Notes under the pieces: generated by a model
What the model saw: the letters and a program-made list of their open reading frames with translations, nothing else
What the model was told of the DNA's origin: nothing
The model's database searches: none
Source of the DNA: Nitrospira sp. KM1
GTDB taxonomy: Bacteria; Nitrospirota; Nitrospiria; Nitrospirales; Nitrospiraceae
Direction of reading: 5' to 3'
NCBI RefSeq assembly: GCF_011405515.1
Contig: NZ_AP022671.1
Coordinates: 248,001-312,000 of the forward strand
DNA length: 64,000 nucleotides
Translations under genes and position numbers: made by a program
Part shown: positions 13,440 to 35,815 of the stretch, one piece after another
Layout: each line of letters starts with the position of its first letter
Position numbering within the stretch: position 1 is the first letter of the stretch

Positions 13440-15479
13440 CTATGTGTGAACCGACGTCAGTATCACCTCACTCGCTTTCTCCGCGATCATATAAATCGGT
13501 GTCACGATGAAAAACCCCGGGATGTACGGAAAGACCGATGCATCGACCACCCGTAGGTTTGTCGTGCCCCGCACTTTGAAGTTGCTGTCCAGTACTGCCA
13601 TTGCATCGTCCATCGCTCCCGCTTTACATGAACATGACGCGTGATGCCCCCAAGCTTCATTCATGATCCAATCCCGTAATGCATCATCGACTATGCCAGG
13701 TCCCGGCCAAATCTCTTCTGCCTGTCCCTCGGCCGTGAGCCGGCTCATCATCTTGCGAATCCAGGTCACGGCTTCGACCATCGCCTCAAGGTCTTCTCTT
13801 CCCTTATTGGCGTCGTTGCCCTCTTCGAAATATTTGAAGTTGATGTCCGGTGTATCGCGGGGATCGTTGGATCGCAGCGTAACTTCCCCTCCGCTATTGC
13901 GGGTATGGGCCTTGAGAACAAGCCAGGTGAAATGGTTCTTGATCGTAATGTTCTTGGTATAACCTTGTTCGTACCCGCGAAAATCAGATGGCAGGCCGAA
14001 GATGAATAAGTCAGGATCTTGTTTCATATTCTTGGCGACGCTCGAACGTTTCAATACCGCAATGACCACGCCGTTGCTGGAGTACAGAAATCCCTTTCCA
14101 TCACGACGTTCATCGGGGCTGGCTTCTTTCCATTCACGGTAGGCGGGATCGGTCTGTTCGTCGGCCTCGAATTTCGCATCGGCCAGCGTCGATAGATCCT
14201 CTTTCATCTTGAAGACGATTCCGACCTCATAGCGATCCTGCAGATTCTTCCCCACGCCCGGCAGGTCGATCTGTACAGGAATACTATGCCGCTCTAATTG
14301 TGACTTAGGCCCAATTCCTGACAGCATGAGCAGTTGAGGACTGTTGAACGCACCGGCCGAGAGAATCACCTCGCGCCTGGCTCGTACTGTCTTTACCCCC
14401 AGCCATGTCGCGACGTTCTTTGGGTCCGCCCGATAGAGGTGTGCCCCCTCGTAACATTCCACGCCCACTGCTTTGCGAAGCCCTGAGGAGGATGTACTTG
14501 CATTGCCGAGTAGCACCTTGCCGACGAGAACGTTGGGTTTGACGGTCAGCCGGCCAGGACAGTTCTGTTGCACCTCTCGAATCCGATCTCGAACGCCGGC
14601 TCGCGTTCCTCCATTAGTGGCCAGCGGCGTGAGATACAGACCCTCCGGCCGGTCTTTGATGGAATCCATGTGATTGATGTCTTTCTTCAAAGCGGCACTG
14701 AACAATTTGGGAATCGCCTGACGGATCAATGCCTCGGGAACTGATCCTGGCAGGTCTTCCAAGGTCGTGAGCGCGACGGCGGCGAGAATCCGCTGGAGCT
14801 GCGGATCTTGTTTCACGAACCGCTCCAGCGTCTCCTGCCTGGGCCGTTCGGTCGAGAGCCAGCCGTTGAACCCATGACGCCCTCCGGTTAGGGTATCCCA
14901 AGTGCGTGATGTGTATTGGCAGCGTTCGACGAGTTGAAAATACTTTCGCATCTTGTCCGATGACCACGAGGCGTCACCGGTGATCGCGGCGATCCGGTCC
15001 CAGTCGCTCTCGTGCGGGTAGACGGTGATCATGGCATTGTGGGCGGTGCAGCCCCCCAACGTGCCTGCTCTGGGATACCAGATGCCTTTTCCACTTTTAT
15101 CCCGCTTGGTGTCATTGCTCTGTCGACTATCGTTAGCATAGTGCCGCACGAAATAATTCCATTGCAGGTTCTGGTCCTCGGTTGATAATGGGTGAAACGC
15201 CGGGACGGAGTAGTTCGCGTCTTCGTAGGCGCCCCCGGCTTCGAGCAAAAGCACGCTATATCCGGCTTCAGCCAGGTTTGCTGCCACAGGGCCGCCACCA
15301 GCCCCGGAGCCGATCACGATGTAATCGAATTCCGTGTCGCCAGGAGATCCTGGGACTGAGCACTGGTCGGACTTCGGCCTAGCTGGGAGAGGGGAGAGAA
15401 GCGAGCAGCTTCCCAGAGAGAACGTCAAGCTGGTTACGCTCGCCAACTTCAAGAAGGTTCGCCGTGAAATGGGTTCCAT
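13440..15479 (-). CDS. Tat-exported GMC-family FAD oxidoreductase, predicted lipoprotein
   Basis: A 679-residue flavoenzyme of the glucose-methanol-choline family. Residues 5-11 (SRRTFLK) are a twin-arginine motif; LGSC at 22-25 looks like a lipobox, so a folded FAD enzyme is probably exported and lipid-anchored. The FAD-binding motif GSGAGGG is at 57-63, followed by VLLLEAGG. Later signatures include AGTLGGCTAHNAM, ILSAGAFNSPQLLMLSGIG and the C-terminal HHASCSCKAG...VVDASVFPYIPG block with the catalytic His. GMC enzymes oxidise alcohols or aldehydes and pass electrons to O2 or a cytochrome; the di-haem cytochrome gene 25 bp upstream is the obvious partner. The substrate is inferred, from the oxygenase-rich neighbourhood, to be a fatty alcohol or aldehyde. 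Confidence 0.9.
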   Translation of the reverse strand: MEPISRRTFLKLASVTSLTFSLGSCSLLSPLPARPKSDQCSVPGSPGDTEFDYIVIGSGAGGGPVAANLAEAGYSVLLLEAGGAYEDANYSVPAFHPLSTEDQNLQWNYFVRHYANDSRQSNDTKRDKSGKGIWYPRAGTLGGCTAHNAMITVYPHESDWDRIAAITGDASWSSDKMRKYFQLVERCQYTSRTWDTLTGGRHGFNGWLSTERPRQETLERFVKQDPQLQRILAAVALTTLEDLPGSVPEALIRQAIPKLFSAALKKDINHMDSIKDRPEGLYLTPLATNGGTRAGVRDRIREVQQNCPGRLTVKPNVLVGKVLLGNASTSSSGLRKAVGVECYEGAHLYRADPKNVATWLGVKTVRARREVILSAGAFNSPQLLMLSGIGPKSQLERHSIPVQIDLPGVGKNLQDRYEVGIVFKMKEDLSTLADAKFEADEQTDPAYREWKEASPDERRDGKGFLYSSNGVVIAVLKRSSVAKNMKQDPDLFIFGLPSDFRGYEQGYTKNITIKNHFTWLVLKAHTRNSGGEVTLRSNDPRDTPDINFKYFEEGNDANKGREDLEAMVEAVTWIRKMMSRLTAEGQAEEIWPGPGIVDDALRDWIMNEAWGHHASCSCKAGAMDDAMAVLDSNFKVRGTTNLRVVDASVFPYIPGFFIVTPIYMIAEKASEVILTSVHT

Positions 15480-15504
15480 CCAATGTCCTTCGCGTACGAG
15501 CGTG

Positions 15505-18084
15505 TCAGAATGTTTTTAAAAACTCGATGAGCGCGCGTTTATCTTGCTCGCTCAGTCCGGGCTCGTTCTCTGCCTTGCTCAACCGATCCGTTCCGAAGTA
15601 GTGGCCGCGATTTGGGACAAAGTCCGGGCATTTGCTGAGCTCGAGTAGCGGTTCCACGAGGTCTTTTTCCAAAAACACCTTTCGCGCTTCTTCGTCACTC
15701 GCATTTAGCGGCAAGGCTTTGAGGGCCTTCTTGACCTTTATCAGGAGTTTGGCCAACTTCCGTTTGTGCGCGATCTTCTGGAAAAATCCTGCATCATCCG
15801 GGAGCATGTCCAGATTTGCGAGGAGGTTGACGGGTGTTCCCTTGGGGATCGGTCCCACTTCGATACCGGCTTCCTTAAAGATCGGTGGAAGGACCTGTAC
15901 GTCGGGGAGAATCTTCTCTTCCAGTTCTATGACGTCCTGCAAGAAGTCTGGAAGAAATCCCTTTGGGATTCGGAGATAGCTGGTCGCGGTTGTGCGGTCG
16001 ATGACCCCTGGTACCTTGTTGCCGAGGATGGGATCGTTGTCTCTCTTTTCCGGCCAGAGCATCTGTTCGATCGAACTCTGAAATGAAGTCATGCGGGCAT
16101 CGACGCTCGGACTCGGATTGAAGCGGCCGACACTGTTGTTCAGAAGGTAGGGAGCGGTGGACCACAGGCTCACCAGAGACGTCACGCGTGTATAGCCCCG
16201 GCCACCTGCCGGCATCTGATAGGACCGGGCTTCTCCGGTGATCGGATGGTGCACGGTGATCGTGCCGACCGAGGGGAGGTCTTTATACGATCGTGATGAG
16301 AAGTTGTCCCAAATATTGTTCTCGATGGCGTTGGTGGCGAGCGGGCTGCAGGCATTCGTCTCGAGCAGCGTCACCGGCACTCTCATGTCGTTCGACAGGA
16401 AGTTGTTTTCAAGGAAGTTATCCGCCAAGACGATCTTCCTCATCTCGCGCTTGAACTCCTCGGTCTTGGTCGATTGCCAATATTTATTCCAGCAGTTCAA
16501 ATAGTCCGAACCGGCGCAACCATGCGGATCGAGGCCGCTTATTTGTGTCGGCAGTTTACTCGAATGGCAACGAGCGCACCGTTCCGCAAACACTTCCTTG
16601 CCGTGCAGAAGCAGCTCGGCGTTTGGTGTCATGTACTTGCCGCCGTCGGGGGCATCCTTGAGTTTGTGCGCCCCTGTGGTCTTCAGAAAGAAGAGGGCCA
16701 GATTCGGCGTCTGTGCCTCCGTCGACTCCCAATAGCTGGAGTTGTTTCGAGCGTCGCGGATCATGATGGGCGTGATCGGTTCTCCGCCGATCAGGGGTTT
16801 AAAGTGCAAGAGCCACTCTTCACTGAAGAGGCCAATGTTGAGAAATACGCGGTTGAGCGCGCCCAATGCTCCCACGGAGTCCGAGCCGTCTTTCAAGACA
16901 CGGGTTGTCCAGACGGTGGCAGGAGCTTTGAAAAATGAATTGGCAAATTCTGCTGTGCGGCCGGTCTTGTCATATTGCCTCAACGCTTGTTCATAATCGT
17001 TGAACTGGCGATTATTCAGGCTGCCGCCGTCCAACAGTTCATGACCCCAGCGTTTGGCCATCTCCAGGCGTGCGCCCAGCTCATACACTGCATTCATCGT
17101 TCGTGGATTGTTGATGCTGTCCGTCGAGACCAGCGAGGTATCGAGGGCACCGGGGCGCGATGTCCTGAATATTTGATAGGGAAAGCTGGTCTGATCCGCT
17201 TCCCAAGAAAAGATGCGATCGATCCAAAAATATTGTGCGCCAACGTTCGAACTCAAATGTTTCCATTCTGGATGTTCAGCATCCGTTGGCGGCTTTGTTG
17301 GAATTGGCCCCACGTGACAGAATGCACAGGACATTCCAACGCGGTACGGTTTAACTAGATTTTTTGCCAGATAGTAGCTTGGATCTTCGTAATAGCGTTT
17401 GGGATCCCATTGCTTGGCTGCTTCTTCATCGAAATCGGGATTGGGGAACAGGCGAAGACCCACGATGCCTGTGGCATATCCGTAGAATGAGCCTACCGGC
17501 AGGTTTCTGCCGCGAGCCCCGGTCTTGACGCCCGGATACTTTGCTTCATTTTCGAACGGATCGGCCTGACAGTCTGGACTCGCGATGCGCTTATCCAGCC
17601 ACAGCCCGAATCGCGAAGGATCAGGTCCGGTGGCCTTTTCAAAACAGGGTTCATTGACCAGACCCAGGTAAGACCATCTGTTGTCCCGGCTGAATTTGAG
17701 ATTTGGATGGGAAGAGAGCGTTTTGAGGAAATCCAGCGTTCCGAAACTGCGTCGCGAGAGATCATCCCAGAATTTGTCATTGCCTCCGGTCCAGACGATC
17801 CAGGTATTGCGACCTTTGACTTCCGCCGGAGACAGTGCCGCGCCGCCATCCATGTCTTTAAAATAATCCTCGTCTGCCGGTGGAAAGGATGCGGCGTTCC
17901 GATTGGCTCGACGAGCTTCATCGACGACCTGTCCGGGGGTGCCAGACGACTTATTCAAGGACAATGTATCGCAGCTCATGAGAAGGACGATTGACAGGAT
18001 CACAAGCGATCCGGATTTCATCGATTGATCTGACATGATCGTTCGTAGACGAGACCGGTTGTTGATGACACAGAGATTTTTCAT
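15505..18084 (-). CDS. Large di-haem cytochrome c (peroxidase/RoxA-like), exported
   Basis: An 859-residue c-type cytochrome. Two CxxCH haem sites are visible, CAFCH in the first third and CARCH in the second half, with long intervening regions. A segment SLWSTAPYLLNNSVGRF near the C-terminus resembles the APYLHNGSVP motif of di-haem cytochrome c peroxidase and RoxA-type dioxygenase families. The N-terminus has a signal with possible lipobox LLMSC. AGGAG about 11 bases before the ATG supports 18084, although an internal Met at about residue 22 would give a shorter signal. It starts the operon with the GMC gene and is preceded by a sigma-54 promoter (18333-18348). Role: electron transfer or peroxidase/oxygenase activity in the periplasm; which of these is not decidable here. 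Confidence 0.85.
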   Translation of the reverse strand: MKNLCVINNRSRLRTIMSDQSMKSGSLVILSIVLLMSCDTLSLNKSSGTPGQVVDEARRANRNAASFPPADEDYFKDMDGGAALSPAEVKGRNTWIVWTGGNDKFWDDLSRRSFGTLDFLKTLSSHPNLKFSRDNRWSYLGLVNEPCFEKATGPDPSRFGLWLDKRIASPDCQADPFENEAKYPGVKTGARGRNLPVGSFYGYATGIVGLRLFPNPDFDEEAAKQWDPKRYYEDPSYYLAKNLVKPYRVGMSCAFCHVGPIPTKPPTDAEHPEWKHLSSNVGAQYFWIDRIFSWEADQTSFPYQIFRTSRPGALDTSLVSTDSINNPRTMNAVYELGARLEMAKRWGHELLDGGSLNNRQFNDYEQALRQYDKTGRTAEFANSFFKAPATVWTTRVLKDGSDSVGALGALNRVFLNIGLFSEEWLLHFKPLIGGEPITPIMIRDARNNSSYWESTEAQTPNLALFFLKTTGAHKLKDAPDGGKYMTPNAELLLHGKEVFAERCARCHSSKLPTQISGLDPHGCAGSDYLNCWNKYWQSTKTEEFKREMRKIVLADNFLENNFLSNDMRVPVTLLETNACSPLATNAIENNIWDNFSSRSYKDLPSVGTITVHHPITGEARSYQMPAGGRGYTRVTSLVSLWSTAPYLLNNSVGRFNPSPSVDARMTSFQSSIEQMLWPEKRDNDPILGNKVPGVIDRTTATSYLRIPKGFLPDFLQDVIELEEKILPDVQVLPPIFKEAGIEVGPIPKGTPVNLLANLDMLPDDAGFFQKIAHKRKLAKLLIKVKKALKALPLNASDEEARKVFLEKDLVEPLLELSKCPDFVPNRGHYFGTDRLSKAENEPGLSEQDKRALIEFLKTF

Positions 18085-18493: not shown

Positions 18494-18506
18494 TCAGTTT
18501 GGATTC
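18470..18506. promoter_or_regulatory. Upstream activator array, half-sites at 11/10/11-bp steps
   Basis: GAATC at 18470, a degenerate TAGGT at 18481, GAATC at 18491 and GATTC at 18502. The last two form a perfect inverted repeat, GAATC-N6-GATTC. The step pattern 11/10/11 is identical to the array before fadL (36229-36265). It overlaps the last codons of the haem peroxidase gene, so it serves the cytochrome operon downstream on the minus strand. Confidence 0.6.
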
Positions 18507-21421
18507 ACGTTGCATGTCCTCTGAGCTGAGTTCGATTGAAAATCGGGATCTGATGTCGCATCAGCCCTGGGGATCCACGTCAGGCTGTAATATTCACAGC
18601 GGTCCCTTGCCCATGGATCGAACACATTGACGACATGTTTCAATTCAGATCGTAATTCTGGAATCGTTCGCATGAGCACCCGTTTCAACGGAGATACCTC
18701 CACCGTTCGGCCGTTCGATTTCTCCGGTTCATACAGCTTTCCGTCCGGCCCGTTATTGTTCACCCATTCGATCCCAAGTGTTGAATAGAATTCGGGCCGG
18801 AAGCTGGATGTAAAGAACCGGTCACTGAACAGACGCCGCGAAGCATTCAATATGAAGACTTGAAACTGGGTCTCTGAAATGGCAAATCCATGCGGCCGTA
18901 TTGGCTCTGCCAGCCACCCGACGACGGTATCAAGATCCTCGATATTATCCACAACGAGCGCCCTGTGGGAGCCCTGATTTTTCTCATGGCCCAAGCAATC
19001 GTTGATGGGTGTTCCGTCCTCATTGGTTTGCGCCCTGGTAATGGTCTTGCGCGGATCGCATGTGTGGGTGCCATAGATTTCTCGCAAGCTGATTACGAGA
19101 TCTTTCTGCCGCTTTAACTCAGGAGTGTTCTCGCCGAGGGTTCGATCGATAAAGTCGTCAAAACCGGTCAAGGTTCTCAGGCCATACTGCCGGCGGAATT
19201 CATTGAAGCGCGGAACGCCTCGTTCACGATCCCGTATGAGATCCAATGCCGCAACGTCGATCCGATTAGCTTTTCCGAGCCGATCGAGCGGCAGGTTTTG
19301 CAGAAACTGGGGGTGATTGTTGAGAGTGAGTCTGCCCAGACGTTGACGGCCCATCGACAGAGCCCAGTTCGCCAACCCCTTTTCACGCATGTACGCGGTC
19401 GCGTTACGCCCGACTGTTCGCACGACGGGTATCTTGCGCTGTATTTGGTTTGAAGTGTCGGCAGCGTCATCGGCCAATTCCCGGTAGTTGAGTAGATCCG
19501 GCACCATGGGATGCAACCGGTAGACCGTCACGAACTCTTCGGGAAAATTAAACGGTGAGCCGAAATGGTTTGTCCCGCCGTTGATGTCCTGTCTGTTGGC
19601 GATATTCCAGCGGTCGAGCAGATTCCAGCAGCGTGTGAACCACAACCGGCAATGTTGATTGCCCTGCCCGATGATTCCAGGCCCTGCCGCAAACGCGGAA
19701 TATAACTGTTCTTTCTCATCATGCTTGACGCCGGCAGATTTCAATATGGTCTTCAAGGCGGAGGCGACAATCGGCTCTTGAGTGTCGAACAGTCCCAACC
19801 AGGTCCCGGCATATAACCCATTCCAGTTGGCGGTCATCGCCTTATAAAGGGGTTCGTCGTATAAAAGCTGTGCCGTCCATTCAATGGTATGAATTTTCGC
19901 AATTTCGGCTGAGATGACGAGCCTCGTGACTTCGAAGAGATCGTCGTCGGTGACGTCCCACCAACGGATCACTTTGCGCGGCTCGTCGGGATTGCGCAGA
20001 CCGCTGTCATCATCGCTTTCGTCAACAGTCGCCTTTGCTCTGAGGGCACGTTCCTTAAAGGCTTCGACGAAACGATTGTGCTCACGAGCGAACACATTGT
20101 GATAAAAACTTAACCCGATGGACCAATTATCAGGAAAAGCCGTCGCCTCTTGCCCGGCCCATTGCGGGCTTGCCGGTACATCCGTGAGATCCAAGACCGG
20201 CAGGTAGCCCTGACTGTCTTGACGTTGTGACGCGATCTGCACCGTTTGTAAGCGTGACCGGTCCTGAGGATCGCGCTTCACCCGCATGGATGAAATCTGG
20301 TCATAGCCGTAAACTTGTGATGCATCCCACCAAGCAGTGACATGATTGTTTGTGGTCTTGTACGCCTGCGCAAGACGACCCGATCCGTCGGAGAATGGTT
20401 TCCCTGCCTCAGTAAGATCAGAACGATCTATTCGCCGGCTCGATCGGCCGATCGGCATTACGTCAGGTTGTCCATCAGCCAGGCGGTTATGGCCATCCTT
20501 GAGATGGGAGAACCAGTCATGGGTCATGAATTGAATCCAAAAAGCGGCGAGCACATTGAAGGAATTTGCCATCTGGTAATCGCAGGTCGCTTCCGGTGCA
20601 CTGCCTGGTAAGCCTTCGCATGTGTTTAGCGGACTTTGCAGGCGGGTGAATAATCTATGGCTAATCAACTGAGGATCTGGTTTCAATAACCCGATTCGGC
20701 CTCCATGCCGATTTCGTGAGAGTTCATCTCTGGCCTCGTCTGGAAACGTCGTTTCAAACTGAACGTTCCTGGCGAATGGTTGTCCCGTGGATCCCATCAA
20801 TGGATTGTCGATGTCATTGCACATTCCATCGAGACGGCGAAAGCGAATCGCTTGCCCCGTGCAACTCTGAGAATCATGCCCTTGAAGATGAAGCCACTGT
20901 TTTATAGCCGTGCCATCGGTCCCATCACCGGCAGGGCCGCGAATGTACTGTTCGTAGCTCCCACCGTTATCGAACAAATTGAACCTGATCATCTCCATCC
21001 GCTGATATTCGAGATCGAGCAATGCGCCTCGAATTCCTCTCCGATCCGGCGCCAGAATGCGGACTGTTTCCAAGGCATCTTGAAAAAGCTCCGGCAGGGA
21101 TTGGATCAGCCGTGATGCGCGGCTATGTCTGGAGTGGCTGTCGCCTGCAGCCCAATAATTCTGCCAGTCGACCCAAGGCAAGCTCCGTTGGGACACAGCC
21201 TTGTCTCCACCACGGCAACGAGCCGTTTCTTCCCGGACTTTTCCTAGAAAGCGAGTACTCCTCTCATGCGCGAGTTGTCGGGGACCGTCGAGATCCTTTT
21301 TTGCACAAGCGACAAGATCTTCGGCGTCGTTGCAGCCACTAACGGCCAGCACGGCTAACAAGGTCCACCAAAGGCATCGCTGCCTGTGGGTTGGTCTTTG
21401 ACTGCAATGAGATGACGGCAT
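18494..21421 (-). CDS. Animal-type haem peroxidase, alpha-dioxygenase-like, predicted lipoprotein
   Basis: A 975-residue protein with a signal peptide and lipobox VSGC (Cys30), an N-terminal region of about 180 residues with no recognised domain, and a haem peroxidase/dioxygenase domain. Signatures: NPLMGSTGQPFARN; distal His301 in WIQFMTHDWFSH; proximal His637 in EEFVTVYRLHPMVPD, with Tyr634 three residues before it. That Tyr-x-x-His pattern is what cyclooxygenases and plant alpha-dioxygenases use to abstract hydrogen from fatty acids; plain peroxidases lack it. Predicted activity: oxygenation of a fatty acid (2-hydroperoxidation if truly alpha-DOX-like) on the periplasmic face. ATG at 21421 was chosen for the lipoprotein signal; a longer frame from a TTG at 21676 runs into a repeat element and is rejected. 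No promoter was found. Confidence 0.87.
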   Translation of the reverse strand: MPSSHCSQRPTHRQRCLWWTLLAVLAVSGCNDAEDLVACAKKDLDGPRQLAHERSTRFLGKVREETARCRGGDKAVSQRSLPWVDWQNYWAAGDSHSRHSRASRLIQSLPELFQDALETVRILAPDRRGIRGALLDLEYQRMEMIRFNLFDNGGSYEQYIRGPAGDGTDGTAIKQWLHLQGHDSQSCTGQAIRFRRLDGMCNDIDNPLMGSTGQPFARNVQFETTFPDEARDELSRNRHGGRIGLLKPDPQLISHRLFTRLQSPLNTCEGLPGSAPEATCDYQMANSFNVLAAFWIQFMTHDWFSHLKDGHNRLADGQPDVMPIGRSSRRIDRSDLTEAGKPFSDGSGRLAQAYKTTNNHVTAWWDASQVYGYDQISSMRVKRDPQDRSRLQTVQIASQRQDSQGYLPVLDLTDVPASPQWAGQEATAFPDNWSIGLSFYHNVFAREHNRFVEAFKERALRAKATVDESDDDSGLRNPDEPRKVIRWWDVTDDDLFEVTRLVISAEIAKIHTIEWTAQLLYDEPLYKAMTANWNGLYAGTWLGLFDTQEPIVASALKTILKSAGVKHDEKEQLYSAFAAGPGIIGQGNQHCRLWFTRCWNLLDRWNIANRQDINGGTNHFGSPFNFPEEFVTVYRLHPMVPDLLNYRELADDAADTSNQIQRKIPVVRTVGRNATAYMREKGLANWALSMGRQRLGRLTLNNHPQFLQNLPLDRLGKANRIDVAALDLIRDRERGVPRFNEFRRQYGLRTLTGFDDFIDRTLGENTPELKRQKDLVISLREIYGTHTCDPRKTITRAQTNEDGTPINDCLGHEKNQGSHRALVVDNIEDLDTVVGWLAEPIRPHGFAISETQFQVFILNASRRLFSDRFFTSSFRPEFYSTLGIEWVNNNGPDGKLYEPEKSNGRTVEVSPLKRVLMRTIPELRSELKHVVNVFDPWARDRCEYYSLTWIPRADATSDPDFQSNSAQRTCNVNPN

Positions 21422-21559
21422 AGGTTTGAGGCGACTCGATCGGTCGAAACCTGCACAGGCGAATATGGCGATAGCCGTGAAGCAGTATGTTGACAAACCC
21501 TGTGACAACTTCGGAAATGGTATCGTGTCCGAGGTCACAGGCGCCAGCAGTCTGCCCTG

Positions 21560-21683
21560 CAGGCTGTTCAGAAAGGCCGTCCAGCAAGGCCGCAGCGAGT
21601 GAAGAGGCGAAGCGTACTCTGTCCCGTACGTTGAGTCTCTGAGCGATGCGAGAACGCCGCTGGCGGACTTTGTCAACAGCCTG
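21560..21683. repeat. Inverted-repeat-bounded intergenic element, copy 2
   Basis: The ends CAGGCTGTTCAGAAAGGC (from 21560) and GACTTTGTCAACAGCCTG (to 21683) are inverted repeats of each other and match the ends of the element at 488-765. The internal text CGCAGCGAGTGAAGAGG..CCCGTACGTTGAGTCTCTGAGCGATGCGAG partly matches the core of copy 1. At 124 bp it is less than half the length of copy 1. The remaining intergenic DNA here (21422-21559, 21684-21739) holds nothing I recognise. Confidence 0.65.
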
Positions 21684-21739
21684 GAAGGTAGCTTATGACA
21701 TGGACGAGAAAAAGTTGCCAGTCATTGAAGCTCGAAAAG

Positions 21740-21773: not shown

Positions 21774-21808
21774 ACGGGCGTTGAGGCAACCGCTGAGTTC
21801 TGGAAGGG

Positions 21809-22003: not shown

Positions 22004-22017
22004 GAAAGCTCCTTCGC

Positions 22018-26608: not shown

Positions 26609-29600
26609 TCACGCATTGATGTTCGCTTCCAGCATCGCGGGATAAATCTTCCAGACCTCCCATGGATCTTTCTCCATCGTCGCTTGAAGCTGATGAAGAT
26701 CATGGCGAAATCTGGTAAAGGCAACTGCGCCTCGGTCGTCCAAAGCCAGATAGGAGAAATCATCCATGAGGGAGCGCCGGGAAACATTGAGATTGAAGTT
26801 CGCATTGATCAGCCGCTGATAGACATCTAGAGGTTCTCGCCGACCGTTGGTATAGACACGGACGGGTTGGCGATGCGTCCAGAGTTGATAGTTCCAGAGG
26901 GACGTCCCTGCCATCTCGTGCTGGACAGTAACCATATAAATCAACCGGGCGATCAGACGAGACAAGGATGCGCGTGTCAGCCGGTCGCCGGGCAATTCCA
27001 GTCCGTTTCGGACCAGGTGTTTCATGTCTTGAAGCCATGTTTCGATCTCTCTGTCTTCTTGTAAGCGAGCATCAGTAGGGTAGTAGGCAGCAATATATCG
27101 GCGGCAGTGTTTCAGAAACACGGCAAAAAGCTGTCTCAGATTATTCTGGGTCGGTGTGTTCAACGATACCTGCCGCTGCCGCCCCCCTCTCTTAGCAATT
27201 CCACGTGCCCGGGCGTCTAAAGAAGGATCATTTATGAGGATGGTATACGTGGAGAAAGTCTGTGAAAACAGGCGGCACATCTCCTCATAGGTGAAACTGA
27301 AGATTTCCTCGAAGTCGCCGTGTTGCGTCATTTGCACGCGGGTGACCATGTAATTGCTCTGTTGTGTGCCGTAAATGTGCGGCCACAATAAGCGGCAGAT
27401 CGGGTGATCAGACGACAGGCGATTTCTGGTGGCAAGAGCCAAGGGTTCACTGCCGGCCAGATGCACCCAGTTAAAATGCCGGACGAGAGACAGGTGTGTC
27501 GTTGCCGTGCAGAGAGCGAGTTTCTTGGCAAGTTGCCAGTTCGGGTCACCCGGCTTGGAGGTACCCAAGATACTCTCTATGAAACAAGGAGTGAGTCTCC
27601 CGGTGACAGGATCGTGAGAAAAGCCTACACGGGCTCCCAGGCGATAGAGGCCTTTGTGGCATGCGTAATCCTCAAGAGCACGGAAATCCCACAAATATAG
27701 GAGGTCATCGATCCGTTCCGTATAGCATGCATAAGGTCCTTTCACTGCAAGCGATCCCAGATCGGGGCTGCCTTCGTAGTCCGGAGGCAGTTCCGGAGGA
27801 TCAAAGGCCCGCCGCTGCAAAAAACTGTACGCATTCCTGATGGCTTTAAAAGGATCTGCTGATATGGCGGGTAGCGGATGGTCTGGCTGCATTGGCGAGA
27901 AGGTGGCGGTGAGCCGGACTTGAATCTGTGAGAAGAACTCTTTGAGTCCGGCCCGTTCGTCGGGCGCAACCGATTTTGAAACTCGGATGTTCGTGATCGG
28001 AATGTCAAATCGATCTGAGAATTGAACGTCGGGAATCCGGTCGAGTGCTTTCATTGCTTGAGAACGGTGCAGGCATGCATCAAGCCGGCTTTTGACGCAG
28101 TTCAAAAAATTTTCGAGGCTGCTTCCTCGCTGCCGAGCAAGCTTCGCATGCTTCTCGGCCAAAAACTTAATCCGCACTGCTTGCTTCCACCACCAGCGTC
28201 GCCGAGGCGGCGGGATTGGCACGGGTCGATTGCCTATAAATTTGACCCAGCAGAATAACCTCCAGAATAGGCCTCGGATACCCCAGGTCACTTCGGCGGT
28301 ACGGACCATCCAGACCGAGCCCACGAAGAGGGCAAAAATAAGCCCTCCCCATAGTGCTGAACGGCTTGTAGAGGCAGCCCAAATCAAGGAACAGAAACCC
28401 TCGTTCGAAGCTTTCTTCAATAGCGAGAGAATGACGCCGGCCGAAAGCCCCAGGACCGTGCCGCGTAAACCCCATATGACCGCCCAAGTCCAATCACGGA
28501 CGAGAACGAATGTCGTGCTGAATCCCACGAGCGTTCCGAGAACGAGTCCCGTCTCTGCCTGATCTGATAACAAGGCTTCAAACAACTGGATCTCATGGTT
28601 GAAAATCAGATGGGCAACTGTGCCGAACAACCATCCACATGCAGCGGCTATGGCGACCCACCCCGACATCGCGAGTATGAGCCCTGCGGCAGCACCGATA
28701 ACAACACCTCCCACGAGATGAAAACTCACTATATCTAATACCGTGAGACCTCTCTCTATAATGGGGAAGAATCCGCCGACAATCTCGATCAGTACCAAAG
28801 GAAGACCTCCTATAATAATGGCGGCTAACGCGCCAAGGAGGAAGCCGTCACGCAGTTGATGCTTTGATCGAACCACTGCATCCCGCAATACGGTCGCAGC
28901 TGCCACAATGGCGATTGCGCCGGCTACCATCGTAAGAACCTCTGTGAACGGCCAAAAATTTTCTGCCAAACTCAGTATCACTCCAACAATGAATCCAATA
29001 ACCCCTCCCCCCAGTGCTCCGAACAGGAATCCATAGGCTGAACGGGATAGATATTTGACCATACCGGAACCGCTGAAAACAGTTCGCAACGACTGCCGTC
29101 CCGCATAGATGATCGCAACCGCTGCTCCGCAGAATGCAGCAATGAGCGCCTCCGGTTCAGCGAGTGCCTCAAACAGAGGCAGAAGGTCCTGTTTGAGCGG
29201 AACAAAAGACACCTGCCGGAGCCAAAGGAACGCTACCGCACCCATAATCCAACCGATGGAGGCCCCGAGAATCACGCCAGCAGGACGTTGTGCTCGAACA
29301 TAACCGAGGACAATCCCCAACAACGCTCCAAGAAAGGCGGCTTTTGTCTCCAGTGCAGAAATGACGGTCGTCATAACTTCCCAGACGCCCCCAAACGTAG
29401 ATCCTCGTATGAGAGTGTAAACGACGGCACCGAGGATCCAGCCTATGGGAGCACCGACTCCGGCGGCTGTCTGCATCTGCTCCCGGAGCGTAAATTCCCG
29501 TGTCGCGAGGTAGCTGACCATGTACAGGGTTGCCAAACATGCCCCGCCCAGAATTGCGCCGATTGCGGTTCCATGAGCTGCTGATCCGGTGCCGAGCGAC

Positions 29601-31834
29601 TGCAGGAACTGCCCGGTCGTAAAACCCTCCGGAGACGCAGCGGCTCCCACTCCCGCTCCCACAAGCCAGCCGATAAATGCGCCGCCGAAGATGGGCATCT
29701 GGAAGATCGAAACACGCCGCATGTCTGGACGAGGATCGGCCGCAGCGGGGTTGGGATCCACCGGTTCGGGAGAGGGGCGTTCCGTGCGTTGCCACGGAGT
29801 GAATGCATTCTTGATATCGTCAAGCGCAGGGGCAAGATCTGGATAGTGACGCAGAAGGACGGTTTTAAAGTCGTTGTGCTCTACCCACTCCATGCCGACC
29901 GGTGTATACACGTCGGCGTTGAAGTCAGTGGTGATGAATCGATCGCTTTTCAGACGACGCGGGGCCATCAGAACAAATATCCGGAATGCCGTATCGCTGA
30001 ATCCGAATCCTTTCGGGAGTTCTTCTGCATGAAGTCCGACCATGAGGTCGAGATCTTCTTTGTTCGGATACCATCTCTTCAGCTGGCGAACCCACGTCTT
30101 TCGCTCCTCGATTTGGCGATTCGTGAGACCGCTGAACCATTTTAGGATCGGCACTCCCACGAGTCGACTGTACGAGATACACGGAGACATCATGAGCATC
30201 CGGCGAAAATTGTTATAGCGGGGAATGGCGCGCTCGCGGTCGCGCATGATATCGATCGTTCCCAAGTCAAGTGCTTCGCCTGGAGCCGGAAAGGTGTAGC
30301 CGTCTTCCCTAGTTCTTCGCAAATTCTGTAAGGCTCGCGGGAAATTGTTTAATGTGACGGCACCAGGATGAGCTACGCCGAATGAATACAGCAGATTCGT
30401 CACACCGGATTGCTGCACGAAGTTGCGCGTCTGATTGCCTTGAAGATCTTGGAACCGACACGCTATCTTGAGTTCGTCTGTATGCAGATCATAGATACGA
30501 TAATCGTCTGGGATTAACGGATGCATTCGGTATACCGAAACAAACTCTTCAGTAAGATAAAAAGGGGATGCGTGGTGATCTTGTTCCGATGCTGGGATTC
30601 CTGTGACTTCTTCTTGCAGGTCTCGCAAAATTCGCAACCGCCCAATGATCTTGGTGAAGCGCTGGGTGAGGATCCCCCACCAGTTCGCCCGCATTCCAAG
30701 GTATAGGGTGGGATGGCCCAAAACGGCCGGCGTCCATTCGACTGTGTGAATTTTGGCGATCAAAGCGGTATTGATCAGCCGTGCTGTTTGGAAAAGGCGC
30801 TCTCCCCTCCAATGAGGGTATGCCATTTTTAGCCGATCACATATCGCGTTATGCTCCAAAGCAAAAAGCGTGTGAATGAGATTAAGTCCTGCCCACCAGT
30901 TATCGTTAAAACCCGTCAAGTCGATGCCATTCTGAGTATCATCGGGCGGCAACGACCTGTCTACAGTATGTAATTTCCCGCTCTCGTCGCCTTCACGCAG
31001 CAACATCTGTTTGTCCAGGCTGCTTCCATAGAGCTGGGATCCATCCCACCAATGTGTCTCTGAATTCCGGTAAACTGGAAAGTCTCGAAGGCCTTCAAAT
31101 TTTCCGCCTGGGTCAAAGTCGCTGCTCGTCCGATCGACCGTATCATCTGGAAGCGTATCTCGAATAACCATCGTGGTTTGGTCCGGACTTCGTCCGGACC
31201 AGTTATCCTCGGGGTCCAACTCGACAGGAGGAAGAGTGTTCTCCCTTGGAGGGAAGGTTTGTCCAGCAGGGTTAGGAGGACGCCGGCGGTGATTGACCCA
31301 ATCATGGACCTGGAATTGGATCCAGGCGGCAGCGAAGAGGTTTAATGAGGATGCCGGTCTGAATCGGTCTCTGGTCAGAAGCGTGCGACTGATGTTCCGT
31401 GGGTTCGGCGAGAGAAGATTTTGAGACCTGTCCGCAACCTGTTCTTTGAACAAGTCATTGAGCCGCTTGAGCGGAAAATTTCTGGCAAACCGGGTTCCCG
31501 CACTGCCCATGAGAGGATCCTGCAGATCGTTGAAGGTTCCGTCGGCCGTGCGTGCAGTTCTGTAGGAAGGATTCCATGGCCACGTCCGAGGATCGGGCCG
31601 GGGCGGTCGTGTTGGCAGCAGCGACGTGTCGTAGAGGTTGCGCTTCCGCATGATAAAGCGGTGCATGGCGAGATTCCAGATGCCGATATGGCGCCAGAGG
31701 CGATGCCAGGGTACGAGCAGGTTGAGAAGGAGAAAGCATGCAGCCAGGACCCAGAAGAGCATGGCCGCGGTAACACCGAGCAACCCAAATACAAGCTTTC
31801 TCAGGAGGTCCCAGAGATACAATCGGTCAGTCAT
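26609..31834 (-). CDS. Alpha-dioxygenase-like haem peroxidase / membrane / lipoxygenase-like fusion protein
   Basis: A 1741-residue single reading frame with three parts. (1) After an N-terminal membrane span (about residues 13-40) comes an animal-type haem peroxidase/dioxygenase domain (about 80-690): DPLMGSAGTRFARN, distal His177 in WIQFQVHDW, and EEFVSVYRMHPLIPD with Tyr435 and proximal His438, close to plant alpha-dioxygenases. (2) About 710-1195 is a hydrophobic region of many glycine-rich helices, with the repeat GAxIGWxxGA seen three times (about 718, 794, 857). (3) About 1320-1741 is lipoxygenase-like: WQLAK, iron ligands His1453 and His1458 in HFNWVH, EPLALATRN..HPIC.LLWPH, YYPTDARLQEDRE, and His1639 at the third ligand position. 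The fourth ligand (Asn in soybean) is Gly1643 and the C-terminal residue is Ala, not Ile. Predicted role: two-step fatty-acid oxygenation at the membrane. It starts 36 bp after the phospholipase gene. Confidence 0.85.
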   Translation of the reverse strand: MTDRLYLWDLLRKLVFGLLGVTAAMLFWVLAACFLLLNLLVPWHRLWRHIGIWNLAMHRFIMRKRNLYDTSLLPTRPPRPDPRTWPWNPSYRTARTADGTFNDLQDPLMGSAGTRFARNFPLKRLNDLFKEQVADRSQNLLSPNPRNISRTLLTRDRFRPASSLNLFAAAWIQFQVHDWVNHRRRPPNPAGQTFPPRENTLPPVELDPEDNWSGRSPDQTTMVIRDTLPDDTVDRTSSDFDPGGKFEGLRDFPVYRNSETHWWDGSQLYGSSLDKQMLLREGDESGKLHTVDRSLPPDDTQNGIDLTGFNDNWWAGLNLIHTLFALEHNAICDRLKMAYPHWRGERLFQTARLINTALIAKIHTVEWTPAVLGHPTLYLGMRANWWGILTQRFTKIIGRLRILRDLQEEVTGIPASEQDHHASPFYLTEEFVSVYRMHPLIPDDYRIYDLHTDELKIACRFQDLQGNQTRNFVQQSGVTNLLYSFGVAHPGAVTLNNFPRALQNLRRTREDGYTFPAPGEALDLGTIDIMRDRERAIPRYNNFRRMLMMSPCISYSRLVGVPILKWFSGLTNRQIEERKTWVRQLKRWYPNKEDLDLMVGLHAEELPKGFGFSDTAFRIFVLMAPRRLKSDRFITTDFNADVYTPVGMEWVEHNDFKTVLLRHYPDLAPALDDIKNAFTPWQRTERPSPEPVDPNPAAADPRPDMRRVSIFQMPIFGGAFIGWLVGAGVGAAASPEGFTTGQFLQSLGTGSAAHGTAIGAILGGACLATLYMVSYLATREFTLREQMQTAAGVGAPIGWILGAVVYTLIRGSTFGGVWEVMTTVISALETKAAFLGALLGIVLGYVRAQRPAGVILGASIGWIMGAVAFLWLRQVSFVPLKQDLLPLFEALAEPEALIAAFCGAAVAIIYAGRQSLRTVFSGSGMVKYLSRSAYGFLFGALGGGVIGFIVGVILSLAENFWPFTEVLTMVAGAIAIVAAATVLRDAVVRSKHQLRDGFLLGALAAIIIGGLPLVLIEIVGGFFPIIERGLTVLDIVSFHLVGGVVIGAAAGLILAMSGWVAIAAACGWLFGTVAHLIFNHEIQLFEALLSDQAETGLVLGTLVGFSTTFVLVRDWTWAVIWGLRGTVLGLSAGVILSLLKKASNEGFCSLIWAASTSRSALWGGLIFALFVGSVWMVRTAEVTWGIRGLFWRLFCWVKFIGNRPVPIPPPRRRWWWKQAVRIKFLAEKHAKLARQRGSSLENFLNCVKSRLDACLHRSQAMKALDRIPDVQFSDRFDIPITNIRVSKSVAPDERAGLKEFFSQIQVRLTATFSPMQPDHPLPAISADPFKAIRNAYSFLQRRAFDPPELPPDYEGSPDLGSLAVKGPYACYTERIDDLLYLWDFRALEDYACHKGLYRLGARVGFSHDPVTGRLTPCFIESILGTSKPGDPNWQLAKKLALCTATTHLSLVRHFNWVHLAGSEPLALATRNRLSSDHPICRLLWPHIYGTQQSNYMVTRVQMTQHGDFEEIFSFTYEEMCRLFSQTFSTYTILINDPSLDARARGIAKRGGRQRQVSLNTPTQNNLRQLFAVFLKHCRRYIAAYYPTDARLQEDREIETWLQDMKHLVRNGLELPGDRLTRASLSRLIARLIYMVTVQHEMAGTSLWNYQLWTHRQPVRVYTNGRREPLDVYQRLINANFNLNVSRRSLMDDFSYLALDDRGAVAFTRFRHDLHQLQATMEKDPWEVWKIYPAMLEANINA

Positions 31835-31870
31835 GGAGACCTTTCTAGAGGTATCTCTTCTCCTTGGACA

Positions 31871-34387
31871 TTAGTGCCGTTCAGGCCAACATGTTTCGAT
31901 ATATTGAGCGAGCGTCTGCGTTATTGTCGGTTTGCATTTTGCAAACGTTGCATCCAACTGATCGTCTACTTCTTGAGTCGATTCATCAGAAAGAACCCAG
32001 CCCAATGGAAGATTTGACGAGCTTGCCCGAAGCTGGAACCGAAGGTATCTTGCGGGGAGGATCTTCTCGTATGCGGTTTGACGCTGAAGGTGAAGTGAGG
32101 CATGACGGCCACGAGCCTGTTGCGATTTATACATCGTGGTCAGCGGTGCAAACACTTCGTCGAGATAGGTGAGACCAGACTCAATCACGTCTACAACAGT
32201 ATCCTGACGGTCAAGCCGGAATGTGTAATGTCTCTTCTCCACGAGCCTATCTCTAACGGACTTTGTTGCCAGCAACAATGTCTGATTTGGCAGTCCCGGA
32301 GCGGATCGGCCGCAGTGCGGATTGGAGCCGGAAAATCCGTCAGGAACGCGTCCCTGAATTTCAACCCTTATACATTCGGGAATAATGGCGGAGTTATGCG
32401 TCTCGGTTATACCGAGATAGTGAACGCCGAGTGTCAAATACTCCGGATCGTTTCCAATGTAGATGACAACCGGTACGATCGTTCTTTGCTGGGCTCGACG
32501 GGCACGCCATTCGGTGAATTTTTGACTCATTATCGGGATCACCTCTCGATAGACTTCTTCCAAGGAGGTCATGCCGGAATTTTCGAAATACCCTCCGTCG
32601 ACGATACGAAGGCGATCGTGCAGTGTCCCCGCCGGACTGATAAACGAAAATCTGGCACTGTTGTTGACCGCAGTACTTAGCCGAACGGTCCGTGGGTGGG
32701 AATGATCGTCGCGATGATCAACGCACTTGGGAGTATTCAAAGTTTCAGAAAAGTCAATGACATCATCGAATACACCGATCACTCTTCCTGTCCATGAGTC
32801 CACACATCGACCTGCGTCTTCCGGTTGTGATATTCGCAAATTGCTGATCAGCACGCGATTACCGCCTTCGACTGATGTCATATTCAGAATCAAACCGGGA
32901 ACCTTGGGGGCGTTTGGGCCTTTCCAGAGATTTTCGAAGGAGTCCTCAAACCGGTTCAGTCGATTCTTTGTGATTCTGTTCCATTGCCGTTCCCAACTCA
33001 TTTCCAGTGTCTGTCCCCGGTCCCAATACTCAATCGGGAAAAGCAGGAAGCGTTGCAAAAGGTCCGGATAGAGAAGCGTACCGAATGTGGCTGAAAGATA
33101 ATCCTGTTTCAGCAGGTCTCTAGCGCATCCGGGGAAATCAGCAGCACTGGTGCATGAGGTGGAGCTACCCTCATCGGCCAGGAGAGCCGAGAAGATTGCG
33201 GCGCCCAAACTGCCTCCAGATACCGCGCTGATCACGAAGACATGTGATCCAAATCCGGGCATGTCCCGTTGAATTCTTGTAAGGATCGAGGCGGTCCAAT
33301 AGGCGGCTCGTATACCGCCACCCTCGGCCGCGACGAATATCACAGGGACCGAATCCGCATTGCGACGAACGAGGGAGTCCTCAAGGCGATGATCGAGCCA
33401 TGAATTGAAGTGATCGGGTAATGGCTGCTTGATCTCTGGGGGATCGTTGCGTGGAAGGGTCCGAATGGCGTGATTGTCGTTATAGGGACTAATCACTGCA
33501 ACATATACGAACAAGATTGTCAGAATTGGAATACGATGCCAGAGACTCCAATAGACGAGGGTAGTTCCGGGCGGTATCCAGGACGCCGCAGCAAGGAGGA
33601 TAATAGAGCCGGATCCGACTACGGGTGCAATGCATAGATTGACGCCTCGAGTTTGGAACACCACCAAGGGAATAATGAAGAGAAGCAAGAAGGACCAACC
33701 GAGAGCTTTGCGCGTCGGACCAGGCAGTGCATAGCTGTCGTGATAAAAAACACCAAATCGTGGATTGTCCGAATCAGAGAGGGGCGGGAGGAGTATTCTG
33801 TTCGCCAAGAAGAAATTCTGCCGCAGGCGTGCAGCCCAATCCCGGCGTTTCCGGACCACAAATGCAAAAATGACAGCGCATATAAGGTAGAGCACTCCGT
33901 TGCTGACGACAGGCCGCATCGCATTTCTGACGTCTAAGGACCTAAAAAATCCTACTGCGACGACCAGAATGGCAATGACACCGAGGGCACGAGGCACCAT
34001 GCGATGGTATCGCATGATTCGCTCGACTCTCCCTGACGGTTCAGAGGGCGGCCAATCACGAAATTGGAAGGATACGATGACTCGTGACCAATACCAAACT
34101 GCCCAAGCCCATACAAACACGCTTACGAAAAAAGCCATATTTTGGATGAGCCACCCGTCATCCTGTAGTGTCTGCAATCTGATCAGGACCTCCTGACCCT
34201 GAGAAGACCCTATAAAGAGGATGGCTACCAAGGCGATCGTCAAGACAGCGAAGCGACATAGCTTGAGTACTTGCCAAAGATCGAGCAGCGGTTCGAGAAA
34301 CTCCCTGACCGCGATTCCGAGGCCGTCAAAGAAGCTCCGACACCGAGTGAGATTATCTGATGATCTCACTGAGAATGGCTCCATCAT
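31871..34387 (-). CDS. Membrane-bound patatin-like phospholipase
   Basis: An 838-residue protein. The first about 300 residues carry several predicted membrane helices (about 45-62, 85-103, 133-150, 160-178, 230-246, 255-272, 285-300). The rest is a patatin-like hydrolase: oxyanion loop GGGIR (356-360), nucleophile Ser390 in AVSGGSLG (the first Gly of GxSGG is Ala) and catalytic Asp in DGGYFENSG (about residue 615). Patatin-like enzymes are Ser-Asp dyad acyl hydrolases that release fatty acids from phospholipids. Its position between fadL and the oxygenase fusion (45 and 36 bp gaps) makes supply of free fatty acid to the oxygenases the natural reading. A regulatory or signalling lipase role is the alternative. 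Confidence 0.88.
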   Translation of the reverse strand: MMEPFSVRSSDNLTRCRSFFDGLGIAVREFLEPLLDLWQVLKLCRFAVLTIALVAILFIGSSQGQEVLIRLQTLQDDGWLIQNMAFFVSVFVWAWAVWYWSRVIVSFQFRDWPPSEPSGRVERIMRYHRMVPRALGVIAILVVAVGFFRSLDVRNAMRPVVSNGVLYLICAVIFAFVVRKRRDWAARLRQNFFLANRILLPPLSDSDNPRFGVFYHDSYALPGPTRKALGWSFLLLFIIPLVVFQTRGVNLCIAPVVGSGSIILLAAASWIPPGTTLVYWSLWHRIPILTILFVYVAVISPYNDNHAIRTLPRNDPPEIKQPLPDHFNSWLDHRLEDSLVRRNADSVPVIFVAAEGGGIRAAYWTASILTRIQRDMPGFGSHVFVISAVSGGSLGAAIFSALLADEGSSTSCTSAADFPGCARDLLKQDYLSATFGTLLYPDLLQRFLLFPIEYWDRGQTLEMSWERQWNRITKNRLNRFEDSFENLWKGPNAPKVPGLILNMTSVEGGNRVLISNLRISQPEDAGRCVDSWTGRVIGVFDDVIDFSETLNTPKCVDHRDDHSHPRTVRLSTAVNNSARFSFISPAGTLHDRLRIVDGGYFENSGMTSLEEVYREVIPIMSQKFTEWRARRAQQRTIVPVVIYIGNDPEYLTLGVHYLGITETHNSAIIPECIRVEIQGRVPDGFSGSNPHCGRSAPGLPNQTLLLATKSVRDRLVEKRHYTFRLDRQDTVVDVIESGLTYLDEVFAPLTTMYKSQQARGRHASLHLQRQTAYEKILPARYLRFQLRASSSNLPLGWVLSDESTQEVDDQLDATFAKCKPTITQTLAQYIETCWPERH

Positions 34388-34432
34388 CCACCGTTCCCTT
34401 GGGCTTGATGTTCCTCTCCAGGAATCACGTCG

Positions 34433-35815
34433 CTAAAAACTCATTCGGAGATTGACTGATCCGATGTGCAATAAGGTTCTATATGTACCGTCAACCGTCG
34501 GGTTAATATTTCCTACTATGGTCCGCGATTCATAGATTTGAGCCTGGTAAGCCAAATCCAACCCGAGTGATCCGCGTCCTTTTTTGCCGAAGTGTCCGCA
34601 CGGAATTGATCCAAAAAGATGACCCTTGTCCTTACAAAGTAAGCCAAGTCCGATTGTGATGCCGTTGAAGTCGGATTCAGGAATCACCGGTGAAAACGTG
34701 GCGTCTGGAATCGGACTCTGTGAACGAATGTATCCGCCTCGAATTGCGACCTCCCATTGAGGCAGTCCTTCCACCTGCAGCCAGCGATGTTCAGTGCCGA
34801 TCATGACGACAACGCTGTTTTTCCAGTTTTGTGGAAATGGCAGCGTTGCTCCATTGGAGAGGTGGATATCCAGGTTACGGAAGGACTTCCATCCCACGTA
34901 GTCCAGATCGAATTCGAGCTTCCACTCTCTTTCATCATTACGCACAGGCCAGATTGCCACTCCGCCGGAATAAATTTGCGGCAACACCGATGTGAAGGCC
35001 GTGTCTGCGACCGCCGCTCCGTTGACCATGAATTGGCCTTTGAGATGAAACGTGGCTTGAGATCTATACACTAGACCGATGTTTACGAGTGGTTTGCCGG
35101 CTTCATTTCGGATGGGGGTGTACAACATGCTGATGTTAAAGCCTGCCGTCGTGTTGTTTCCGTTAATTTCCAATGGTGCACCGGAAGGAATGCCCGGAAT
35201 TCCCGGATTGTTAAATTTCTGTTCGAATTGGCCCTCTCCGATGAAGCTGGCAAATGTATAGATATCGGCGCCTATACCGAAAGAAAGTTGGTCATTGAGT
35301 TTAAAGCCGAGAGTTGGCTTGATATCCAGCAACGGTAATTGAGCGCTGGTCACAGCCGACGAGAAGGGACCGTCATTTGGATACCGGACATTCAGGCCGA
35401 ATGGTGATGTGACTCCGAGACCTAAAACAGTATTGCCAAGGCTGGAAAAACCGAGATCTTTGAGGTTCGCCGTAAGGTACAGGTTGCTCGGTGGAGGAAC
35501 GGCAACACTTCCTCCTACATCGCCGTGGACATCGACTCCTGCCGGGCTTCGGTACGAAACCCCGCCTCCGACCAGCGTAGTTCCTACAGATACCTGGAAT
35601 CCTTGTAATTGGGTCATCCCTGCCGGGTTATAATGTATGGCGGAAGGATCGTCGGCCTGAGCTATAAAAGCATTGCCTTGACCGTGAGCCGAGGCACTTT
35701 GAGGCATTATCCGAAAGGCTTCCCCGTACGCCTCATGTACTCCCCAGTGCAGTGCGGTAAGAAGAACGACGGGGACAAATGCAGCCTTCCAACGACGAGT
35801 CAATGCTCGAAGCAT
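34433..35815 (-). CDS. fadL: FadL/TodX-family outer-membrane fatty-acid channel
   Basis: A 460-residue outer-membrane barrel. A signal peptide ends at about AYG-EAF. The mature N-terminus has the FadL hatch-domain motifs GNAFIAQADDPSAIHYNPAGM (NPAGM at 63-67), and the C-terminus ends in a typical barrel strand with terminal Phe (NLRMSF). FadL proteins let long-chain fatty acids or other hydrophobics cross the outer membrane by lateral diffusion. ATG at 35815 was chosen because GGAGGG lies 5 bases before it; a longer frame from 35857 lacks a site. It is the first gene of the phospholipase-oxygenase-cytochrome-kinase operon, behind a sigma-54 promoter at 36118-36133. Direction of transport (import of fatty acid or export of oxidised product) cannot be told. 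Confidence 0.9.
   Translation of the reverse strand: MLRALTRRWKAAFVPVVLLTALHWGVHEAYGEAFRIMPQSASAHGQGNAFIAQADDPSAIHYNPAGMTQLQGFQVSVGTTLVGGGVSYRSPAGVDVHGDVGGSVAVPPPSNLYLTANLKDLGFSSLGNTVLGLGVTSPFGLNVRYPNDGPFSSAVTSAQLPLLDIKPTLGFKLNDQLSFGIGADIYTFASFIGEGQFEQKFNNPGIPGIPSGAPLEINGNNTTAGFNISMLYTPIRNEAGKPLVNIGLVYRSQATFHLKGQFMVNGAAVADTAFTSVLPQIYSGGVAIWPVRNDEREWKLEFDLDYVGWKSFRNLDIHLSNGATLPFPQNWKNSVVVMIGTEHRWLQVEGLPQWEVAIRGGYIRSQSPIPDATFSPVIPESDFNGITIGLGLLCKDKGHLFGSIPCGHFGKKGRGSLGLDLAYQAQIYESRTIVGNINPTVDGTYRTLLHIGSVNLRMSF

Follow-up and report, generated by a model that had tools for sequence, protein, structure and literature searches.

What brings two fatty-acid-oxygenase-like proteins together with a lipase-like protein, a channel, di-haem proteins, a flavoenzyme and a sensor kinase on one strand of a Nitrospira genome? 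The question is raised by a stretch of 64,000 nucleotides from Nitrospira sp. KM1 (positions 248,001 to 312,000 of contig NZ_AP022671.1, in a single-contig genome of 4.5 Mb), referred to here as the window, and all positions below are counted within it. The original prediction placed a FadL channel, a patatin-like phospholipase, an alpha-dioxygenase/lipoxygenase fusion (here PxLOX), a second alpha-dioxygenase (aDOX2), a GMC flavoenzyme, two di-haem cytochromes and a kinase in one 22 kb cluster at 13440-35815 and read it as an oxylipin pathway. All these families were found by domain matches and all the genes are on the minus strand, but gene spacing resolves the 22 kb into two units about 1.3 kb apart, the second of which runs beyond that interval down to 811. 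On balance the two adjacent operons are best read as an envelope system that oxygenates fatty acids and has a sensor coupled to it, in analogy to the oxylipin system of Pseudomonas aeruginosa.

The two units and their oxygenases

Unit 1 reads FadL, patatin, PxLOX, a RoxA-like di-haem protein (RoxL1) and kinase, with gaps of 45, 36, 52 and 48 bp. Unit 2 opens with aDOX2, which lies 409 bp from the di-haem gene cytc2, and continues with gaps of at most 86 bp through GMC, h125, h144, two TPS exoproteins, TpsB, a CHAT-TPR protein and a DUF928 protein. PxLOX (26609..31834, minus strand; PF03098 6e-97, PF00305 7e-16) is composed of an N-terminal transmembrane segment, an alpha-dioxygenase domain at about residues 40-690, a polytopic linker and a lipoxygenase-like domain. 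The top matches of its N-terminal part in the PDB are the rice and Arabidopsis alpha-dioxygenases 4hhr/4kvj (1e-92), and aDOX2 (18494..21421 from its likely start, minus strand; PF03098 2e-63) likewise has an alpha-dioxygenase as top match (4kvj, 3.6e-58), both far ahead of peroxidases and cyclooxygenases. PxLOX keeps the distal histidine H177, the proximal histidine H438, the radical tyrosine Y435 and the carboxylate-handling H363 and R627; the corresponding residues of aDOX2 are H301, H637, Y634, H511 and R863, and the same five are also present in 11 relatives. The title of a reference in PMC8720084 names His311 and Arg559 of the rice enzyme as key residues, and two recombinant cyanobacterial family members have been characterised as fatty-acid alpha-dioxygenases (PMC8720084). 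By family both KM1 proteins are alpha-dioxygenases, and 2-hydroperoxidation of fatty acids is predicted for them.

The second dioxygenase of the original prediction is thus real, but its reading frame had been listed from a TTG at 21676, inside a dispersed intergenic repeat, and the true start is likely the methionine at 21421. Since this start yields a protein of 975 aa with a lipoprotein signal and the lipobox LAVSGC, aDOX2 is predicted to be a lipoprotein. The repeat itself (21470-21676, minus strand) has more copies in the KM1 genome and in most Nitrospiraceae genomes; between the units it reads in frame into the listed aDOX2 frame, many other copies hold stops, and it is possibly a structured intergenic element. 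A third match to the haem-peroxidase family lies elsewhere in the KM1 genome (L112, G000:C1:790307-790891).

The lipoxygenase-like domain, at about residues 1243-1741 of PxLOX, scores 58.3 bits with PF00305 against a cut-off of 23.6 and as a profile matches the solved lipoxygenases 3vf1 (7e-19) and 1lox (1.1e-17), and its metal-site histidines are invariant in 11 aligned sequences. The linker joining it to the dioxygenase spans about 540 residues, compared with about 370 in N. moscoviensis (L021), which has the same fusion; no convincing Pfam family was found in it, the N. moscoviensis linker giving only a Gly-zipper match below cut-off. Relatives with the whole fused protein are Nitrospira. 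Others carry a separate lipoxygenase-like gene, and no transmembrane segments were predicted in the copy examined. In Archangium (L070:5602-17618) the lipoxygenase-like gene adjoins an alpha-dioxygenase gene and two large proteins of one family flank the pair, the one scanned being a kinase/ATPase protein with tetratricopeptide repeats (TPR).

Linkage in Nitrospiraceae and in other phyla

Among 175 Nitrospiraceae genomes one or both oxygenase halves were matched in 22, and in all 12 that have both, the dioxygenase and lipoxygenase-like genes are adjacent or fused. Wherever a Nitrospiraceae neighbourhood was examined, the kinase gene adjoins the lipoxygenase-like gene, and several of these pairs overlap slightly (for example L161, 12232 and 12225); in KM1 RoxL1 sits between PxLOX and the kinase. 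FadL homologues with 49-53% identity adjoin lipoxygenase and kinase in three relatives (L101, L103, L104). The dioxygenase, lipoxygenase-like and kinase genes are a conserved Nitrospiraceae block. In genome G227 the dioxygenase gene (L165:9116-10948) contains four in-frame stops, and the adjoining lipoxygenase and kinase genes are open.

The remaining partners recur in other phyla. In a set of 72,556 plasmids, cytc2 homologues were found on 21 records and GMC homologues on 23, mostly from Rhizobium and not independent; the genus tallies coincide and the coordinates are neighbouring, adjacency being judged from the records opened and from how close the coordinates of the two tables lie. The cytc2 homologues of Rhizobium and Sinorhizobium plasmids have 44-45% identity over 95% of the length and lie beside GMC, and the order in R. 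johnstonii pRL11 and S. fredii is NADH:flavin oxidoreductase (OYE), RoxL, a small gene, RoxL, cytc2, GMC and patatin; in the Sinorhizobium B11 copy patatin is not beside GMC. A GMC-patatin fusion follows cytc2 in Mesorhizobium onobrychidis, its patatin-like segment falling just below the Pfam cut-off (the fusion on the Mesorhizobium plasmid, L179:11780-16468, has 1562 residues). A Calothrix plasmid carries an alpha-dioxygenase followed by GMC and patatin, and an alphaproteobacterial metagenome-assembled genome (L050) has an alpha-dioxygenase beside GMC and cytc2. The order OYE, RoxL, RoxL, alpha-dioxygenase occurs in a cyanobacterium (L045), and in Qingshengfaniella RoxL is close to an alpha-dioxygenase. 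Fusions of a catalase-related domain with an alpha-dioxygenase are present at many loci, and in Roseibium, Mesorhizobium and R. phaseoli a di-haem gene comes directly after such a fusion. The symbiotic plasmid pNGR234a (L188:8001-14948) has consecutive short RoxL-like, catalase-related, di-haem and patatin genes.

Di-haem genes at most 3 kb from an alpha-dioxygenase gene were enriched among 80 genome loci, but weakly and in phylogenetic clusters, and the argument from linkage therefore rests on the distinct lineages and not on this count. The original prediction had offered a neighbourhood search as the check that could overturn it. That search found the oxygenases linked, the kinase adjoining and FadL in three relatives, and, in Cyanobacteria and Alphaproteobacteria, differing combinations of genes for GMC, di-haem proteins, patatin and alpha-dioxygenase, but the complete set nowhere else.

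Companion proteins and remaining genes

RoxL1 (25021..26556, minus strand; 511 aa) has an N-terminal membrane anchor and CXXCH motifs at 119 and 354. It scores 159.7 bits with NF040606 against a cut-off of 150 and is over the cut-off of PF21419 (2.6e-15), whereas with the RoxA, RoxB and RoxC equivalogs it reaches 56-72 bits for cut-offs of 900-1000. RoxA (4b2n) is its sole solved relative by sequence, and the match covers the C-terminal part only. The predicted lipoprotein cytc2 (15505..18084, minus strand; 859 aa) has CXXCH at 253 and 503 and only weak matches to CytoC_perox and RoxA models (NF040606 3.8e-11). By their sequences RoxL1 is a member of the RoxA-like di-haem group and cytc2 resembles that group. 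Since they belong to or resemble the type of RoxA and the P. aeruginosa fatty-acid dioxygenases, the two proteins, predicted earlier as cytochromes and indeed di-haem, may be oxygenases beyond mere electron carriers. Given the size of cytc2, the two haem sites that it carries and the constancy of GMC as its partner, a plain electron-carrier role for it was set aside, though not disproved. Tandem RoxL pairs occur in cyanobacteria, rhizobia and Nitrospiraceae; the RoxL tree has a well-supported clade made up of tandem-pair partners from three phyla, and RoxL1 is a long branch whose placement is unresolved.

The kinase (22750..24972, minus strand; 740 aa) has HisKA, HATPase and GAF domains and a V4R/H-NOX-like N-terminal region. 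A structure model of this sensor region, of low confidence (predicted local distance difference test, pLDDT, 61), matched H-NOX in Foldseek (8e-5) and gave VIA Z values of 6-8 to H-NOX, Bet3, PoxR and MopR, while a profile search of the PDB gave no match. Residues C194, D218, C221 and C229 are invariant in alignment A2, a further relative (L106) having serine for the last cysteine. In the phenol sensor DmpR the zinc ligands are Cys151, Glu172, Cys177 and Cys185 (PMC7264223); the CX7C spacing of the kinase is identical to theirs, but the acidic residue is shifted. The kinases of relatives have a receiver domain and, behind the sensor region, a hydrophobic stretch, and the KM1 copy has neither. 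These residues and the modelled fold suggest that the kinase may sense a small hydrophobic ligand.

The FadL/TodX-family outer-membrane channel (34433..35857, minus strand; 474 aa; PF03349 5.5e-33) is the first gene of unit 1. The patatin-like phospholipase that follows (31871..34387, minus strand; 838 aa; PF01734 2e-7) scores 31.7 bits against a cut-off of 27.7 and has a VDGG motif, with several estimated transmembrane-like segments N-terminal of the domain; it has no similarity to rhizobial patatins detectable with tblastn at 1e-4, and the link between them is at the Pfam level only. The GMC flavoenzyme (13440..15479, minus strand; 679 aa; PF00732, PF05199) carries the signal SRRTFLK for twin-arginine translocation (Tat) and is 49% identical to the GMC protein of the Calothrix PCC 6303 plasmid.

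The rest of unit 2 is likewise on the minus strand. A small predicted lipoprotein of 125 aa, h125 (13044..13421; weak LPAM_1), begins 18 bp after GMC and is followed by h144 (12576..13010), which by its sequence is an exported Cys-rich protein of 144 aa. Two TPS-domain exoproteins (5795..12489; PF05860; gaps of 50-86 bp), a TpsB-type transporter (3999-5807; PF03865), a TPR-CHAT protein (1655-3982; PF12770) and a DUF928 protein (811-1647; PF06051) complete it. TPS proteins occur in only four places in the KM1 genome. TPS, TpsB and CHAT genes flank an aDOX2 homologue in another genome (G127, L110), and CHAT and DUF928 genes lie near cytc2-GMC in G137 (L120), a genome of the same order, where a weakly catalase-like predicted lipoprotein comes after cytc2 and GMC. 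Scans for promoters and terminators returned fewer sites than shuffled sequence does and were not used.

The proposed system, its alternatives and its known counterparts

In the proposed envelope system the patatin-like enzyme would free acyl chains, and/or FadL would import long-chain fatty acids or export oxygenated ones. The fused alpha-dioxygenase domain would add O2 at C2, the 2-hydroperoxide giving a 2-hydroxy acid or a Cn-1 aldehyde, and the tethered lipoxygenase-like domain, if active, would introduce another hydroperoxide into a polyunsaturated chain. RoxL1 may act as a further oxygenase or as a hydroperoxide isomerase, like the 10S-dioxygenase and diol-synthase pair of P. aeruginosa. 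In unit 2 the same pattern would recur in the periplasm with enzymes that are lipoproteins or exported by Tat, namely aDOX2, cytc2 and GMC, the last a putative oxidase of the alcohol or aldehyde. The kinase would detect a hydrophobic product or substrate and set expression; sensing of the product is only suggested, by its conserved place and its tentative V4R/H-NOX-like domain. The substrates and the order of the steps (lipase, transport, two oxygenations, alcohol oxidation, sensing), the latter as originally predicted, we infer.

Several observations weigh against this reading. No genome other than that of KM1 was found to hold all eight genes; in most relatives that have the lipoxygenase, no patatin, GMC or di-haem gene adjoins it, and in same-genus relatives with aDOX2 (L148, L149) none of the other genes is adjacent. 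The lipoxygenase assignment of the original prediction stands as a family match, but in all 11 aligned sequences three canonical metal-site features fail: the spacing is Hx5H for Hx4H, there is a glycine where the fourth ligand would be Asn/His/Ser, and the chain invariably ends in alanine instead of isoleucine. A structure model of the domain, built with seven sequences, was poor (pLDDT 44) and was not used, so that the metal site is judged from the alignment alone. The domain appears to be a coherent, conserved but divergent lipoxygenase-like subfamily of putative activity and is not classed as a lipoxygenase, and the three fatty-acid-desaturase-family genes of the KM1 genome would not establish production of polyunsaturated fatty acids. 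The sensor assignment of the kinase is tentative, V4R being below the Pfam cut-off (12.4 bits against 31; E 0.17) and the model at pLDDT 61. Finally, six Nitrospiraceae loci (L150-L153, L159, L160) have a separate, conserved di-haem cluster with no alpha-dioxygenase, and an Lcp/MpaB-like oxygenase gene precedes the cytc2-GMC pair in G137; the di-haem and GMC parts may for these reasons act on isoprenoids. The six loci read cytc2-like, an unknown protein of about 290 residues, another di-haem protein, RoxL and RoxL, four di-haem proteins in all.

The main rival is catabolic alpha-oxidation or lipid scavenging, in which the enzymes would shorten or detoxify exogenous fatty acids, the kinase would merely be lipid-induced and nothing would be signalled. 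Thiamine diphosphate (ThDP) enzymes and FAD-linked oxidases are encoded near alpha-dioxygenases elsewhere, on a Streptomyces plasmid and at many loci, and such neighbours fit a route from 2-hydroxy acid to Cn-1 aldehyde; an FAD-linked oxidase gene also comes after the kinase in N. moscoviensis. The cluster of the window shows no ThDP enzyme, however, and chain shortening alone would less readily account for a lipoxygenase-like domain that is accompanied by a conserved kinase of its own. The chemolithoautotrophic life of Nitrospira also counts against this explanation, which is considered rather unlikely.

Oxidation of isoprenoids or hydrocarbon polymers comes second and is distinctly improbable. 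Here the RoxA-like di-haem proteins and GMC would cleave or oxidise terpenoid or rubber-like lipids and the alpha-dioxygenases would be incidental, as the Lcp/MpaB-type gene of L120 and the standing of RoxA as the only solved relative of RoxL1 might indicate. The C-terminal extent of that match and the scores far under the RoxA/B/C cut-offs speak otherwise, and the recurrent alpha-dioxygenase, catalase-related and patatin neighbours indicate fatty acyl substrates. It is very improbable that a conserved dioxygenase-lipoxygenase-kinase core lies by chance beside an independently acquired patatin, RoxL1 and aDOX2 unit, for although the complete set is unique to KM1 and a 1.3 kb gap with a dispersed repeat parts the units, patatin and RoxL1 lie within unit 1 with gaps of 36-52 bp, these partners are met again in other phyla, also in the form of a GMC-patatin fusion, and linkages conserved in relatives and other phyla make the grouping more than chance.

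The envelope oxygenation system is thus retained, and the evidence favours its assembly in KM1 from modules that are found separately as well; the original interpretation is partly supported, in its functional linkage and its family assignments. That Nitrospira make and sense oxylipins is conceivable but doubtful: the fusion would channel one fatty acid through two oxygenations, the di-haem proteins and GMC would finish the product, and the co-conserved kinase would read it. Detailed knowledge of oxylipin signalling in bacteria comes essentially from a single pathogen, and if true this would be a second such system with enzymes different from those of Pseudomonas, the fused enzyme being a new architecture for tandem fatty-acid oxygenation. 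A conserved unit of dioxygenase, lipoxygenase-like protein and kinase in globally important nitrifiers, and a recurring set of lipase, di-haem, GMC and alpha-dioxygenase genes shared with cyanobacteria and legume symbionts, would make bacterial oxygenated-lipid chemistry testable. Algae and plants use oxylipins as hormones of their own, and cross-talk with them would be possible. The recurring pieces in unrelated bacteria hint at an unstudied bacterial counterpart of plant and animal oxylipin signals. A literature search, with most subscription journals outside its reach, turned up no account of either the fused architecture or the linked set, and nothing relevant on oxylipins in Nitrospira, on gene clusters with alpha-dioxygenases or on RoxA in combination with patatin or GMC.

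With the plant and cyanobacterial alpha-dioxygenases (rice and Arabidopsis alpha-DOX, CalDOX, LepDOX) the KM1 proteins share the catalytic domain and all key residues (PMC8720084), but one KM1 copy is fused by way of a membrane domain to a lipoxygenase-like domain and the other is a predicted lipoprotein; Nitrospirota is not among the five bacterial phyla listed there. Like PxLOX, the catalase-lipoxygenase and catalase-haem dioxygenase fusions (coral AOS-LOX, Acaryochloris, cyanobacterial DOX) join two oxidising domains of one fatty-acid pathway in a chain (PMC11719350), whereas in PxLOX the lipoxygenase-like domain has an alpha-dioxygenase as its haem partner and is joined to it by a polytopic linker. 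RoxL1 shares the di-haem c-type architecture and the PF21419 segment of the rubber dioxygenase RoxA, but is shorter, with a haem spacing of 235 residues against 199, and scores far under the RoxA/B/C cut-offs. The nearest functional precedent for the KM1 set is the oleate-diol synthase locus of P. aeruginosa (PA2076-PA2078, FadCcp), which serves oxylipin-dependent quorum sensing. Its di-haem fatty-acid dioxygenases are periplasmic, are of the RoxA group and are encoded beside the regulator that senses their oxylipin product (PMC4496055, PMC6377657), and the 10S-dioxygenase and diol synthase have been placed in the RoxA-like di-haem group (PMC4496055). RoxL1 and cytc2 are likened to PA2077/PA2078 at the level of that group. 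To such a locus KM1 adds the alpha-dioxygenases, the lipoxygenase-like domain, GMC, patatin and FadL, and its regulator is a histidine kinase where P. aeruginosa has a LysR protein.

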